A stretch of DNA of 64,000 nt from Vibrio stylophorae. Lineage in GTDB: Bacteria; Pseudomonadota; Gammaproteobacteria; Enterobacterales; Vibrionaceae. Below, piece after piece: positions 7,432 through 12,086 of this stretch; within the stretch, counting starts at the first letter, position 1, and each line of letters begins with the position of its first letter. Made by a program: the position numbers and the translations under genes. The stretch covers positions 2,357,915 through 2,421,914 of the forward strand of contig NZ_CAKLDI010000001.1 in the NCBI RefSeq assembly GCF_921293875.1, read 5' to 3'. The notes under the pieces were generated by a model. That model was not told the origin of the DNA. It made no database searches and saw only the letters and a program-made list of their open reading frames with translations.

Positions 7432-7470
7432 AAAAAACGGCATGGATATGTTTATCGATATCCATGCCGT
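7432..7470 (-). terminator. strong terminator at the end of the PTS operon
   Basis: A perfect 13-bp stem, 7437-7449 with 7458-7470, and an 8-base loop. On the minus strand it is followed by a run of T, so it ends the operon that comes from the right. Confidence 0.9.
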
Positions 7471-7499
7471 CGATTATATATTTTTAGGGGGAAACGCGC

Positions 7500-8381
7500 T
7501 TAGCGACGATTGGCCATTCGTTTATATTGATGTCGCCGACCACGAATCGTCAAACCTAAACGCATAATATTTTCTGGTGGTGCAATGCCCGCATAGCCGC
7601 CATCACCAATATGAACAATGTCTGCGCCAGCGGCCTTACAAGCAATACCGACTTGTTCAATATAGCTCTCCGTTGCCCCCTCCTGAGACGTACCAATCGC
7701 CAACATCCCTAACATGCCAGCTTGATGGACTGAGTGCATCATCTCGCAGGCCATATCCGGTGTCACACCTGGTGTGGTATATGGCGCGGGGAACATCATA
7801 ATATCTGCACCTGCCTGCGCGAACTCAGGCACAATGGCGAGGTTGTAATCATTGCCCACACCACCACCATGCATCTTGCCAGCAATAATGATGATCTCAT
7901 TGGATACACTTCGCGCTAAACGAATCGCATCTAAAATGGTTTCTTGGGTGACACAGTTCCCTGGGTTACCTGTGAGCATGATGTAATCCAAACCCAAATC
8001 GATAGCTCGCTGCACGGTTTCACGCGTAACGGTTCGCCCCACACACAAGTCTTTTACATCCGCAGGAACGGGTTCCAAGTTACAACCAATCATACGGCCA
8101 GTCGCCGCTTTAATATCGGCGATACTCATTTGCGCTTCAGGATCATCCAACAGCACCTTGATTTCAGGATTCATCACATCTAAACAGTTCAAGGTGATCA
8201 TATCCGCGCCAAATGCCGCAGCAATTTCAGCACCAGAAACCACGTCCAATGGCGGCGTAATCGCGACGACGTTTTCCACCATCAAGGTACGCCCTTCTGA
8301 GCGACGAATGCTATCTACAATTTCAGCACGATTTGCGTTTGCTAAATCTGCTGCGGTGTAATCAAAAATACGCTTTTTCAT
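7500..8381 (-). CDS. uncharacterised TIM-barrel-like protein of a PTS operon
   Basis: 293 aa. I do not recognise a characterised enzyme here. The sequence has the alternating beta/alpha pattern of a TIM barrel, with Gly-rich loops after predicted strands: VVSGAEIAAAFGADMITLN near residue 47, LDYIMLTGNPGNC near 130, IIIAGKMHGGGVGNDYNL near 163, GADIMMFPAPYTTPGV near 190 and GADIVHIGDGGYAGIAPPEN near 252. The C-terminus is very basic. It is the last gene of a IIB-IIC-IIA PTS operon and overlaps the IIA gene by 4 bases (ATGA), so it very likely acts on the phosphorylated product of that PTS or on a nearby sugar phosphate. Similar genes next to lactose/cellobiose PTS genes are annotated as domain of unknown function. 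Barrel fold and role are inferences. Confidence 0.7.
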   Translation of the reverse strand: MKKRIFDYTAADLANANRAEIVDSIRRSEGRTLMVENVVAITPPLDVVSGAEIAAAFGADMITLNCLDVMNPEIKVLLDDPEAQMSIADIKAATGRMIGCNLEPVPADVKDLCVGRTVTRETVQRAIDLGLDYIMLTGNPGNCVTQETILDAIRLARSVSNEIIIIAGKMHGGGVGNDYNLAIVPEFAQAGADIMMFPAPYTTPGVTPDMACEMMHSVHQAGMLGMLAIGTSQEGATESYIEQVGIACKAAGADIVHIGDGGYAGIAPPENIMRLGLTIRGRRHQYKRMANRR

Positions 8382-8725
8382 GCAAACTCCTTTTCTCGAA
8401 TCAGCTGATGAATACCGACAATCTCTGCTGCTAAATCACGACACAGCATGGTGGTCATAATGTGGTCCTGAATATGCGTCAAGATTAAAGTCATGGTGAC
8501 TTTGCCTTCACCTTCATCAAAACCGATCAAGGATGTTTGTGAACGATGCACGTCAATCAGTGCTTGATCGCCTTCATTTAAACAACGACTCGCCTCATCA
8601 AAATGACCTTGCCTTGCCGCACTCATGGCCTCCATAAATGCGGCGCGCGCTTCACCAACTTGACACAGCAAGGTCATCAGAAACTCTTCAGTGATATCGT
8701 CACTTGACTGAATCGCTTGAACCAT
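8378..8725 (-). CDS. PTS system lactose/cellobiose-type IIA component
   Basis: 115 aa, the full length of the ChbA/LacF family of three-helix PTS IIA proteins. It passes phosphate from HPr to IIB. The phosphorylated His is expected in LTHIQDHIMT (His84), and the conserved DEGEGKV lies just before it. It overlaps the IIC gene by one base and the next gene by four, indicating tight translational coupling. The family transports diacetylchitobiose, cellobiose or lactose, but the substrate cannot be told from IIA. Confidence 0.92.
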   Translation of the reverse strand: MVQAIQSSDDITEEFLMTLLCQVGEARAAFMEAMSAARQGHFDEASRCLNEGDQALIDVHRSQTSLIGFDEGEGKVTMTLILTHIQDHIMTTMLCRDLAAEIVGIHQLIREKEFA

Positions 8726-10047
8726 TATGCAGCCCCCTCAGCAGCTTGTGGCATCGCACCACTTGCTTGTGCATCCTCACGCGCTTTTTCTTCTGCCACT
8801 AACTGCTTTTCATGCACCTTTAAGAAAGGAAGGAAAACCAACGCACTGACTACAATACTGCTACATACAACCAAAATGGCAGTACCTGAATTGGTGGCAA
8901 TCATCGCACCAATTGGTGCCGGCATGGTCCATGGTGGCAAGGCAATAATTTTTGCAACAAAACCAGTTTTAAAGGCAAGCCAAACAATGGTGGTATTCAG
9001 CGCTGGTGCCAATAACCAAGGAATGAAATAAAGTGGGTTCATGACAATCGGTGTGCCAAAAATCACGGGCTCATTGATATTAAAGGACCCAGGAATAACC
9101 GACATTTTACCAATGGTTTTGAGCTGCGTTGATTTAGAGAAGATCATCAAACAAACCAGACCCCAAGTACCACCCGCACCACCAACAAAAATAAAGAAGT
9201 CCATTACAGGGTTAATAAAGATATGAGGTAGCACCTCTCCGGCAGCCAGTGCCGCTTGGTTCGCTTCCAAGTTAATGAGCAGCATGGGTGCAATGATCCC
9301 ACCGACCACAGAGCCACCATGAATGCCGCTAAACCACAACAATTGAACCAGTAAAACCGCAACCAGACAGGCGATATAAGAATCGGACGCCACGACCAAT
9401 GGCTGGAACAAGGTCATTACCGCAGAAGGAATCTGAAGATCGTAATTCGCCAAGATAACGTTAATAGGCATGATCACCAATGAGATCACCACAATGGGAA
9501 TCAAGAGATCAAAAGAGGCTGAAATTTTTGGCGGTACAGCTTCAGGCATCTTGATGCGAATATTATATTTAATCAGTAGTCGCTGCATTTCAGGCACTAA
9601 CAAACCACAAATAATCGCAGTAAAGGCACCGGCGCCACCGAGATAAGACGCGGGAATACCACCATCTTTAATCGGGGCCGCTGCAAGTAAGAAAGCAAAG
9701 ACGCTAAGCATCCCGGTGTTCATTGGTCGTAATTTGTAAGATTCAGCCAAGCTAAACCCCATACCAAAGGTGGCATAAATGGCAAAGATCCCCATGCTTA
9801 GATTGAATGGCGCCATAATATTATCCATGCCAATCATCGCAATCAGACTATGCCAACCGCCAAAGAACCATCCATTCGATGATGGCGGGTAAGCAAAAAC
9901 TAAGAGTAGTGAACCCACAATCAAAAACGGCATACTTGAAACAAAACCATCTTTAATTGCATTGATATGGCGCTGTGCGGAAATTCTGCCCGCAATCGGT
10001 GCCACAGAGTTTTCAACAAAATGCATTGTTTTATCAATCAATGACAT
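8725..10047 (-). CDS. PTS system lactose/cellobiose-type IIC permease
   Basis: 440 aa with about ten hydrophobic segments. It is the membrane channel of the PTS. Residues 1-60 carry the family opening (KTMHFVENSVAPIAGRISAQ, then SMPFLIVGSLLLVFAYPP); conserved loops include FSGIHGGSVVGG and FNINEPVIFGTPIVMNP, the latter typical of the sugar-binding region of the ChbC family. The ATG at 10047 has a GGGGGAA site; the in-frame TTG at 10062 is rejected. The C-terminal tail (VAEEKAREDAQASG...) is soluble. Confidence 0.93.
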   Translation of the reverse strand: MSLIDKTMHFVENSVAPIAGRISAQRHINAIKDGFVSSMPFLIVGSLLLVFAYPPSSNGWFFGGWHSLIAMIGMDNIMAPFNLSMGIFAIYATFGMGFSLAESYKLRPMNTGMLSVFAFLLAAAPIKDGGIPASYLGGAGAFTAIICGLLVPEMQRLLIKYNIRIKMPEAVPPKISASFDLLIPIVVISLVIMPINVILANYDLQIPSAVMTLFQPLVVASDSYIACLVAVLLVQLLWFSGIHGGSVVGGIIAPMLLINLEANQAALAAGEVLPHIFINPVMDFFIFVGGAGGTWGLVCLMIFSKSTQLKTIGKMSVIPGSFNINEPVIFGTPIVMNPLYFIPWLLAPALNTTIVWLAFKTGFVAKIIALPPWTMPAPIGAMIATNSGTAILVVCSSIVVSALVFLPFLKVHEKQLVAEEKAREDAQASGAMPQAAEGAA

Positions 10048-10071
10048 AATCCATTCCCCCAATATTCTCTA

Positions 10072-10383
10072 TTATTGATGCTCGGAATAAAGGGCCATGG
10101 CTTGCTCAAGCACCACATCCCCTTTCATCATTCCGTAGCTCATCATATCGATCAGGCCACATCCCTTACCTTGGGCATTGGCCAACTGCTTAAACTCTTC
10201 AAATTTAAACTTCACTTGTGGCGCAACCAGACAAACATCACTACGTGCCATGCACTCTTCAAATTCAGCAATGGAATGCGCAGAAATTTCACATTCAATT
10301 CCCTTCATCTCAGCTGCCTGCTCCATTTTATTCACCAACATGCTGGTCGACATGCCAGCGGCACAACATAGAAATATTTTCAT
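10072..10383 (-). CDS. PTS system lactose/cellobiose-type IIB component
   Basis: 103 aa. A small IIB protein of the ChbB/CelA family. MKIFLCCAAGMSTSML at the N-terminus is the phosphocysteine loop, with Cys7 aligned to the active Cys. The ATG at 10383 follows a strong ribosome binding site (AGGAGGG). It is the first gene of the operon IIB-IIC-IIA-TIM-barrel gene and lies 48 bases downstream of an operator palindrome. Confidence 0.94.
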   Translation of the reverse strand: MKIFLCCAAGMSTSMLVNKMEQAAEMKGIECEISAHSIAEFEECMARSDVCLVAPQVKFKFEEFKQLANAQGKGCGLIDMMSYGMMKGDVVLEQAMALYSEHQ

Positions 10384-10430
10384 GCTATCCCTCCTATGGG
10401 TTTGTCCTTGAAAATGACTATAACCAAAAG

Positions 10431-10457
10431 TGAAACCGGTTACTGTAACCGGTTTCA
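10431..10457. promoter_or_regulatory. perfect palindromic operator for the LacI-type regulator
   Basis: Two 13-bp arms, TGAAACCGGTTAC and GTAACCGGTTTCA, around a single T. Each arm contains AACCGGTT, the core of a typical LacI-family operator with a central CpG, so the element may hold two overlapping sites 13 bp apart. It lies between the PTS operon and the regulator gene. Confidence 0.8.
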
Positions 10458-10600: not shown

Positions 10601-11599
10601 TTAAATTGCTGAAGTTGACTCGCGAATAATTAACTCACCAGCAAAGGATTCAGGCAAAAATATCTCTTGTGAGGTAATTAATTTTTTCGCCACATGCAGC
10701 GCACGGTCAATCATCTCTTGAATTGGCACGCTCATCGTCGTCAATGCAGGTGTCATATAAGCAGAGTATGGGTCATTATCGATCCCCATCACGGATACAT
10801 CCGCAGGCACATTTATACCCGCTTCTTTGAAAGCATGAATACAACCCACAGCGATATCATCACCAGCGCAAATGACAGCCGTGCAATTCCCTAGGTTTGA
10901 AGCTAGATGTTTGCCCATCATATAGCCCATATCAATACCGTGCATGCTTTCAATAAACTGCCCTTTACATCCCAAATCGCTGTACTGATCGATACACTCA
11001 AGAAAGCTATTGAGCCGTGCAACGTAGGCATGGGTCTCCCAAGATGGGCCGACATAGGTAATATTTCGATGGCCAGACTCAATCAAATAAGTGACTGCAG
11101 CACGCATCAACTGACCTTGATTGAGAGAAATAGAGTAGCCCGCCTCTGGTGGCAACTGTCGTCCCACATGCACCATCGGAACATCAATATCATGATTTAA
11201 TTCAATTAATTGCTCGACAGTCAGTAAACTACCGTGAAGTACAATCACGCCACATTTTTTTTCATGCAGCGAATAGATGGCTTCAATCTCTTTTTCTGGT
11301 TGTAGATGACCATCTGCTATCAGCAGTTGCTTACCCACCATCTCAGAGCTAAGTGAAGCCTGTTTGAGCAAAGTCCCCACATAACTTTTAGAAAAGTCAG
11401 ACAGCATTAAGCCAATACTGGTACCTTCCTGTTTCGCCAAAGCCTGTGCGACAGAACTCGGGCGATAATTCAGTTGTTGAATCGCGTCTTGAACTCGTGC
11501 GCTTGTGCTTTCTTTGACTTGCCCTGTTCCATTGATTACACGCGATACTGTCGCTTTTGATACCCCGGCAATACGGCAAACATCATTGATCGTGGCCAT
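10601..11599 (-). CDS. LacI family transcriptional regulator of the PTS operon
   Basis: 332 aa. Residues 1-60 are the LacI helix-turn-helix and hinge (INDVCRIAGVSKATVSRVIN, then LNYRPSSVAQALA), followed by a periplasmic-binding-like sensor domain (VMGIDNDPYSAYMTPALTTM near residue 270). It is transcribed in the same direction as the PTS operon and lies directly upstream of it, with the operator in between, so it very probably represses it. The effector is unknown. The ATG at 11599 matches the family start; an in-frame GTG at 11614 would add five residues. Confidence 0.92.
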   Translation of the reverse strand: MATINDVCRIAGVSKATVSRVINGTGQVKESTSARVQDAIQQLNYRPSSVAQALAKQEGTSIGLMLSDFSKSYVGTLLKQASLSSEMVGKQLLIADGHLQPEKEIEAIYSLHEKKCGVIVLHGSLLTVEQLIELNHDIDVPMVHVGRQLPPEAGYSISLNQGQLMRAAVTYLIESGHRNITYVGPSWETHAYVARLNSFLECIDQYSDLGCKGQFIESMHGIDMGYMMGKHLASNLGNCTAVICAGDDIAVGCIHAFKEAGINVPADVSVMGIDNDPYSAYMTPALTTMSVPIQEMIDRALHVAKKLITSQEIFLPESFAGELIIRESTSAI

Positions 11600-11614
11600 G
11601 TGCTTTTCTTGCAC

Positions 11615-12086
11615 CCTTCATCGTTTATGTCATTTCAGCGCTATTGCAGTACTGGTGACTAGGTTATTATTTTTATCGACTCATCTTACTATCCACAGAG
11701 TATTGCAAATTCAAAAATTGAACGCATGTATTTTCTGAGAATCTAAGCACAATATTATTAATATATTACACAATAATGATTTAAAAGCTGTGAGCGAATA
11801 ATAAGTTCAATATCGTCAATGACTGTCAACAAACCTAAATTAAAGTAAACATCAGCCATACTGCATCGCGATCCATCTCAGCTTCTTTCTTATTGCCCCT
11901 CAACATTAAAACTAAGCACTCAATCGCACAATATCTTGTTAGCCAAAGTGATATAAAAAGTTATTTTTTTGCGCCATCTTCGATCCATCATCCATAGATA
12001 GATGATCAATCAAGCAATGCGATGCATCATCCATAGATAGATGATCAATCAAGCAATGCGATGCATCAGATACAAACGGCAAGGCT
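11615..12086. other. AT-rich gene-free region with a tandem repeat
   Basis: About 470 bases without a credible gene, in an AT-rich stretch upstream of the LacI-type regulator. I see no CRP, FNR or LexA site. The only structured part is the 39-bp tandem repeat at 11986-12068. Confidence 0.6.
11986..12068. repeat. 39-bp tandem repeat, two full copies plus a stub
   Basis: Copies at 11986-12024 and 12025-12063 are identical over 39 bases, followed by CATCA (12064-12068) of a third. Each copy contains a small dyad, ATCATC-N8-GATGAT. Only two units and no spacers, so it is not a CRISPR array. Confidence 0.9.

Follow-up and report, generated by a model that had tools for sequence, protein, structure and literature searches.

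A lactose/cellobiose-family PTS operon of Vibrio stylophorae with a DUF7916 protein as its sole non-transport gene

The PTS island SPH1922-1930 of Streptococcus pneumoniae encodes a Lac-family EIIA, EIIB and EIIC, with a hypothetical protein lying between the PTS genes (PMC3283741, PMC3302838). That protein has been named 'PEP phosphonomutase-like' or 'ComA family' (PMC3283741, PMC3302838; the ComA name in PMC3302838), and HHpred matched it to IMPDH, GMP reductase and NanE (PMC3283741). From synteny and annotation, we infer that SPH1928 is a member of the Pfam family DUF7916. A member of the same family is encoded behind a Lac-family PTS in the stretch of Vibrio stylophorae DNA analysed here, 64,000 nucleotides long and referred to below as the window. 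The pneumococcal island shares its layout with an Enterococcus faecalis locus (ROK, DUF7916, IIB, IIA, IIC), whose DUF7916 gene we confirmed in this analysis, but differs from the window operon in having a ROK instead of a LacI regulator and in its added sulfatase genes. The E. faecalis locus itself lies on plasmid LR962562.1 (L018:5392-14876) and runs from the ROK repressor through DUF7916, IIB, IIA and IIC to a 1592-aa surface GH16 enzyme.

Gene 'down' of Enterococcus faecium, beside hylEfm on pHylEfm, is also a DUF7916 member, identified by an exact match of the published primer (L017:7917-7933). Its in-frame deletion left growth and virulence unchanged in the conditions used (PMC3039558). 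Unlike the gene in the window, 'down' follows GH20, GH42 and GH84 genes and has no PTS gene within 7 ORFs. The chb and nag operons, for chitobiose and GlcNAc, have PTSs of related families, and amino-sugar genes of this kind adjoin DUF7916 in other genomes. The window operon, in contrast, has no ChbF (GH4), ChbG, NagA or NagB, is accompanied by a LacI regulator and carries DUF7916 as its only extra gene.

The operon and its regulator

The operon lies on the minus strand, in the transcription order LacI regulator, operator, EIIB, EIIC, EIIA, 293-aa gene, terminator. EIIB (10072..10383; PF02302, E=4e-20) carries its Cys in CCAAGMSTS and was delimited by its translation and ribosome-binding site. 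EIIC (8725..10062) matches PF02378 and, at 366.7 bits against a cut-off of 236, TIGR00410, and may start at TTG 10062 or ATG 10047. EIIA (8378..8725; PF02255, E=9e-27) contains the motif THIQDH and is the sole match to a Lac-family EIIA in the genome. The set of EIIA, EIIB and EIIC is thus complete, with the phosphorylation-site Cys and His present, as is required for a Lac-family PTS; its matches to sugar-specific equivalog models were all below cut-off. The 293-aa gene (7500..8381; PF25509, E=1e-107) shares bases 8378-8381 with EIIA, and a predicted intrinsic terminator (7436..7471, a 14-pair stem followed by a T-run) ends the operon. These coordinates and profile matches confirm the original prediction of a lactose/cellobiose-family IIB-IIC-IIA set followed, with a 4-base overlap, by a 293-aa gene. 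The gene extents given there stand for gene content and overlap but not for the start of EIIB, placed at about 10457; this start is most likely at 10383, because AGGAGGG precedes the ATG there and a gene starting further out would extend across the LacI operator. Shine-Dalgarno sequences are clear at EIIB and the 293-aa gene, and EIIC and EIIA have G-rich stretches at the right place.

Directly upstream lies a gene for a LacI-family regulator (10601..11614, minus strand), with a LacI HTH (PF00356) and a Peripla_BP_3 domain (PF13377); a lacI homologue takes the same position in most of the closest Vibrio loci. The predicted operator (10434..10454) is a perfect palindrome, AACCGGTTACTGTAACCGGTT, which recurs at 1-2 mismatches in 12 Vibrio/Photobacterium loci, again upstream of IIB and with lacI adjacent, and is absent from loci that lack the adjacent lacI. 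We considered using the LacI regulon as a clue to the substrate, and dropped it since the window's genome and a relative (G012), the two genomes searched, each have a single strong operator site and hence no further regulon members. With one clear operator per genome, PTS and DUF7916 therefore form a dedicated regulated unit. It follows that general metabolism must supply the rest: the window locus encodes no glycosidase, deacetylase or deaminase (by ORF and Pfam check), and the same genome has nagB-nagA at 1.904 Mb and two GH20 genes elsewhere. Between lacI and the next gene, at about 11980-12068, there is also a short tandem duplication with a unit of about 40 bases containing catccatagatagatgatcaatcaagcaatgcgatgcatca.

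Fold, conserved residues and family tests

The 293-aa protein matches PF25509 (DUF7916) over its full length (residues 6-291; 359.9 bits against a cut-off of 27), as do all 42 aligned members, the window protein and 41 relatives; an NCBIfam search with it gave no match. It is a plain member, with no difference from the Pfam family. The suggestion that this was undescribed biology therefore fails at the level of the family, which is already catalogued and has had a likely S. pneumoniae member on record since 2012, while a literature search for the name DUF7916 found no paper.

AlphaFold2, run on the alignment with the 41 relatives (taken from fetched genome loci), gives a (beta/alpha)8 TIM barrel of eight strands (pLDDT 93.0, pTM 0.92), which supports the predicted TIM-barrel-like partner. 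Of the 82 near-invariant residues, 38 fall among the 72 positions of the mouth formed by the C-terminal ends of the strands (odds ratio 4.5, p=3e-7), and the opposite face of the barrel is not enriched in them. The mouth residues are N65 and D68 on beta2, E103 on beta3, TGNP on beta4, GKMH on beta5, PAP-T-PG on beta6, GTSQEG on beta7 and HIGD-G on beta8. The Gly-rich turns after beta7 and beta8 may correspond to the phosphate site of phosphate-binding barrels, which they resemble. On the predicted structure, then, conservation at the mouth is as would be expected of an enzyme. The original prediction also allowed that the system senses rather than feeds; with the invariant residues gathered at the barrel's catalytic mouth, this is the less favoured of its two alternatives.

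Known enzyme families gave little to anchor a reaction. Foldseek with the predicted structure returned generic barrels only (TM about 0.5), sequence searches of the PDB gave nothing convincing, and in the profile and structure searches together we found no match to a characterised family; a match to one with an unrelated role would have counted against the original prediction. Members carry the GenBank names 'PEP phosphonomutase', 'haloacid dehalogenase-like hydrolase' and 'phosphosulfolactate synthase', and these have no profile support. The second, used for E. faecium copies, was rejected since the predicted fold is a TIM barrel and HAD is not among the listed Pfam matches. The first and third amount to a reading of DUF7916 as a member of the PEP mutase/isocitrate lyase superfamily or a ComA-like lyase, acting on a three-carbon acid to form or cleave a C-C or C-P bond. 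Existing annotation favours it (GenBank names; PMC3283741, PMC3302838), and PrpB and carboxyphosphonate mutase are among the many barrels listed by Foldseek. Against this, the profile probability (hhalign) against PEP mutase proteins (PF13714) is 2.6%, neither PEP_mutase nor ComA is among the listed Pfam matches of the 42 members at E<=5, and the neighbours of DUF7916 are amino-sugar genes rather than phosphonate or sulfonate genes. We consider this reading very improbable.

DUF families aside, NanE (PF04131) alone among the barrels of amino-sugar metabolism gave a signal repeatedly, though below threshold; weaker, scattered Pfam matches were to GGGP synthase, dapA and other barrels. NanE, the ManNAc-6-phosphate 2-epimerase, resembles DUF7916 in being a TIM barrel, in its link to amino-sugar phosphate metabolism and in a local match of about 78 columns. 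Sub-threshold matches occurred in 8 of the 42 members (best E 5e-5), and those inspected scored 13-15 bits against a cut-off of 27. Comparing the two profiles gave a probability of 94% over 78 columns at 29% identity, with a score of 57.7, where 60 column shuffles reached 21 at most; these figures come from single-pair comparisons of shallow alignments, in which NanE against PEP mutase itself reaches 52%. The alignment is out of barrel register, placing beta6-8 of DUF7916 on beta4-6 of NanE; the catalytic Asp of NanE (AMAD motif) aligns to A228 of the window protein, and the alignment does not extend to the Lys/Glu pair. We therefore rejected identity with NanE, given the shifted register, the Asp that is not kept and scores below the PF04131 cut-off. 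A circularly permuted NanE with Lys169 and Glu29 as catalytic pair, a by-eye reading of the motifs, was rejected as well: eight permuted profiles gave no support, cutting at the predicted point gave a lower score than the native order did, and full-length scores were no better. Judged by its sequence, DUF7916 is a remote cousin of NanE among the barrels and not a NanE. No NanE above cut-off was found in the window's genome. In two other genomes (G010 and G012) NanE coexists with DUF7916, and DUF7916 is therefore not simply a NanE substitute.

Gene neighbourhoods of DUF7916

Scanned for DUF7916 relatives, 84,980 species genomes of bacteria and archaea yielded at least 556 loci encoding one, and others lie on Enterococcus plasmids. 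The 80 genome loci of our neighbourhood survey were the closest among the matches listed and so form a biased sample. Across the 82 loci with an ORF-level match, a Lac-family PTS is near 28, a glucose/GlcNAc-type PTS near 32 and neither near 22, so that PTS genes of two different families are nearby in 60. Counting copies, 46 of 83 have a PTS gene as their immediate neighbour on the same strand; of the 372 genes lying more than 6 kb away in these loci, 1 is a PTS gene. In a separate, evenly drawn sample of Vibrionaceae, 41 of 248 genomes have the family. Short-type copies there directly follow IIC-IIA in 20 of 23 cases and are followed by a GH20 hexosaminidase in 9 of 23 (full-length Vibrio GH20 proteins adjoining DUF7916 have signal-peptide-like N-termini), and none of the 9 long-type copies is in an IIC-IIA-DUF7916 operon. 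The association with PTS genes is thus not unique to this genome and recurs across phyla. In the tree, the window copy belongs to a clade of Vibrionaceae copies paired with a Lac-PTS, and the second copy of its genome stands far off with those of the long type. Eight changes of the Lac-PTS label are required on this tree, and pairing with one or other PTS must therefore have been gained or lost repeatedly.

The typical Bacillales operon is nagA-nagB-GntR-EIINag-DUF7916. E. faecium plasmids have GntR-SIS-LacD-DUF7916-IIC as well as the GH20-GH42-GH84-DUF7916 order of 'down', and on an E. coli plasmid a glucose-type EII overlaps DUF7916 by four bases. Either nagA or nagB accompanies DUF7916 in 18 of the 82 loci, all of them among the 32 with a glucose/GlcNAc-type PTS; the statement that no known catabolic gene is present is thus correct for the window locus but not in general. 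The common thread of these neighbours is N-acetylhexosamines, and they point to an N-acetylhexosamine substrate.

Another way to view the 293-aa protein is as a phospho-glycosidase of a new family, cleaving an imported phosphorylated disaccharide in place of the missing GH1 or GH4 enzyme. Lac-family PTSs often import beta-disaccharides, the commonest glycosidase fold is the TIM barrel, and the window operon has no glycosidase. However, DUF7916 directly follows a GH4 phospho-glycosidase in loci L057 (a Thermoanaerobacterales bin) and L071 (a Chloroflexi bin), and the idea in the original prediction that it must replace such an enzyme is not supported. In addition, many relatives stand beside glucose/GlcNAc-type EII, normally monosaccharide importers, and the acidic pair of clan GH-A is absent from strands 4 and 7 (TGNP on beta4, TSQE on beta7). 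A glycosidase role is for these reasons improbable.

Proposed role

We propose, at about an even chance, that this is a LacI-controlled operon for the uptake of an N-acetylhexosamine or an N-acetylhexosamine-containing sugar, with DUF7916 as an enzyme of phospho-amino-sugar metabolism. EIIBCA would import and 6-phosphorylate the sugar, and the barrel would bind the phosphosugar where its strands have their C-terminal ends, converting it by isomerisation, epimerisation or a lyase/retro-aldol step, with the invariant Lys169 acting alongside E103, H171, E234 and D260. The product would then be one that NagA and NagB, whose genes lie elsewhere in the genome, can use. The class of substrate, an amino-sugar phosphate, is better supported than the reaction. 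For the latter, our likeliest single guess, and a doubtful one, is a C2/C4 epimerase or isomerase with HexNAc-6-phosphate as its substrate; the remaining probability is divided between a carbon-carbon lyase and other chemistry.

The main rival holds that DUF7916 is accessory or regulatory, binding the imported phosphosugar or an EII component, modulating uptake or repairing damaged phosphosugar, with no obligate catabolic step. With nagA, nagB and EIINag together, GlcNAc can be used without an additional step, and DUF7916 coexists with such complete sets and with GH4 phospho-glycosidases without a further step being obviously missing. Many copies stand alone (22 of the 82, and the second copy of the window's genome, have no PTS neighbour), no characterised relative fixes the reaction, and deletion of the E. 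faecium homologue, identified by its primer match, gave no phenotype in the conditions tested (PMC3039558). All of this counts against an enzyme. On the other side, the invariant charged residues that line the predicted barrel mouth would be typical of catalysis, and the regulated Vibrio operon has DUF7916 as its sole non-transport gene and thus no other dedicated enzyme. We regard an accessory role as possible but unlikely.

The locus is a real, conserved association, holding an uncharacterised member of a catalogued family in a variant of an amino-sugar PTS, and not a new category. A more far-reaching form of the enzymatic proposal, to which we give somewhat less than an even chance, is that DUF7916 represents a new TIM-barrel enzyme class, which acts on 6-phosphorylated N-acetylhexosamines in a step not described before and has been recruited repeatedly to two different PTS families; in Vibrionaceae, enzyme and PTS together would make up a self-contained module for the catabolism of a sugar derived from chitin or glycans, one that these bacteria are not yet known to use. 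The family is widespread, has misleading database names and no assigned function. Because the Vibrio operon is co-regulated, the question comes down to one transporter and one enzyme, and a small panel of hexosamine phosphates could therefore suffice to find the reaction. Its role would also account for part of the E. faecium hyl plasmids and, if the synteny is right, of a pneumococcal PTS island that contributes to colonisation.

DUF7916 also occurs in other surroundings. The second copy of the window's genome (L002:1501-2427, at about 1.28 Mb of contig G000:C1) is of the long type, about 42% identical to the window copy, and has no PTS neighbours, being flanked by genes that resemble those for a peptide release factor and an NAD-dependent epimerase. 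In L045 and L049, DUF7916 is near an iron-siderophore-like ABC transporter and an AraC regulator, with no sugar genes in the context. A gene of the CutC family, another TIM barrel, adjoins or diverges from DUF7916 in Salinicoccus and Oceanobacillus (L065, L067, L075, L089); membership of DUF7916 in CutC was rejected at a profile probability of 1.2%. In a Vibrio/Photobacterium subclade (L014, L033, L037, L039, L040, L043), PTS-DUF7916 adjoins a yhfZ-type regulator (YhfZ_C by Pfam in L014), followed at several loci by a phosphotriesterase-family gene and others resembling the uncharacterised yhf cluster of E. coli.
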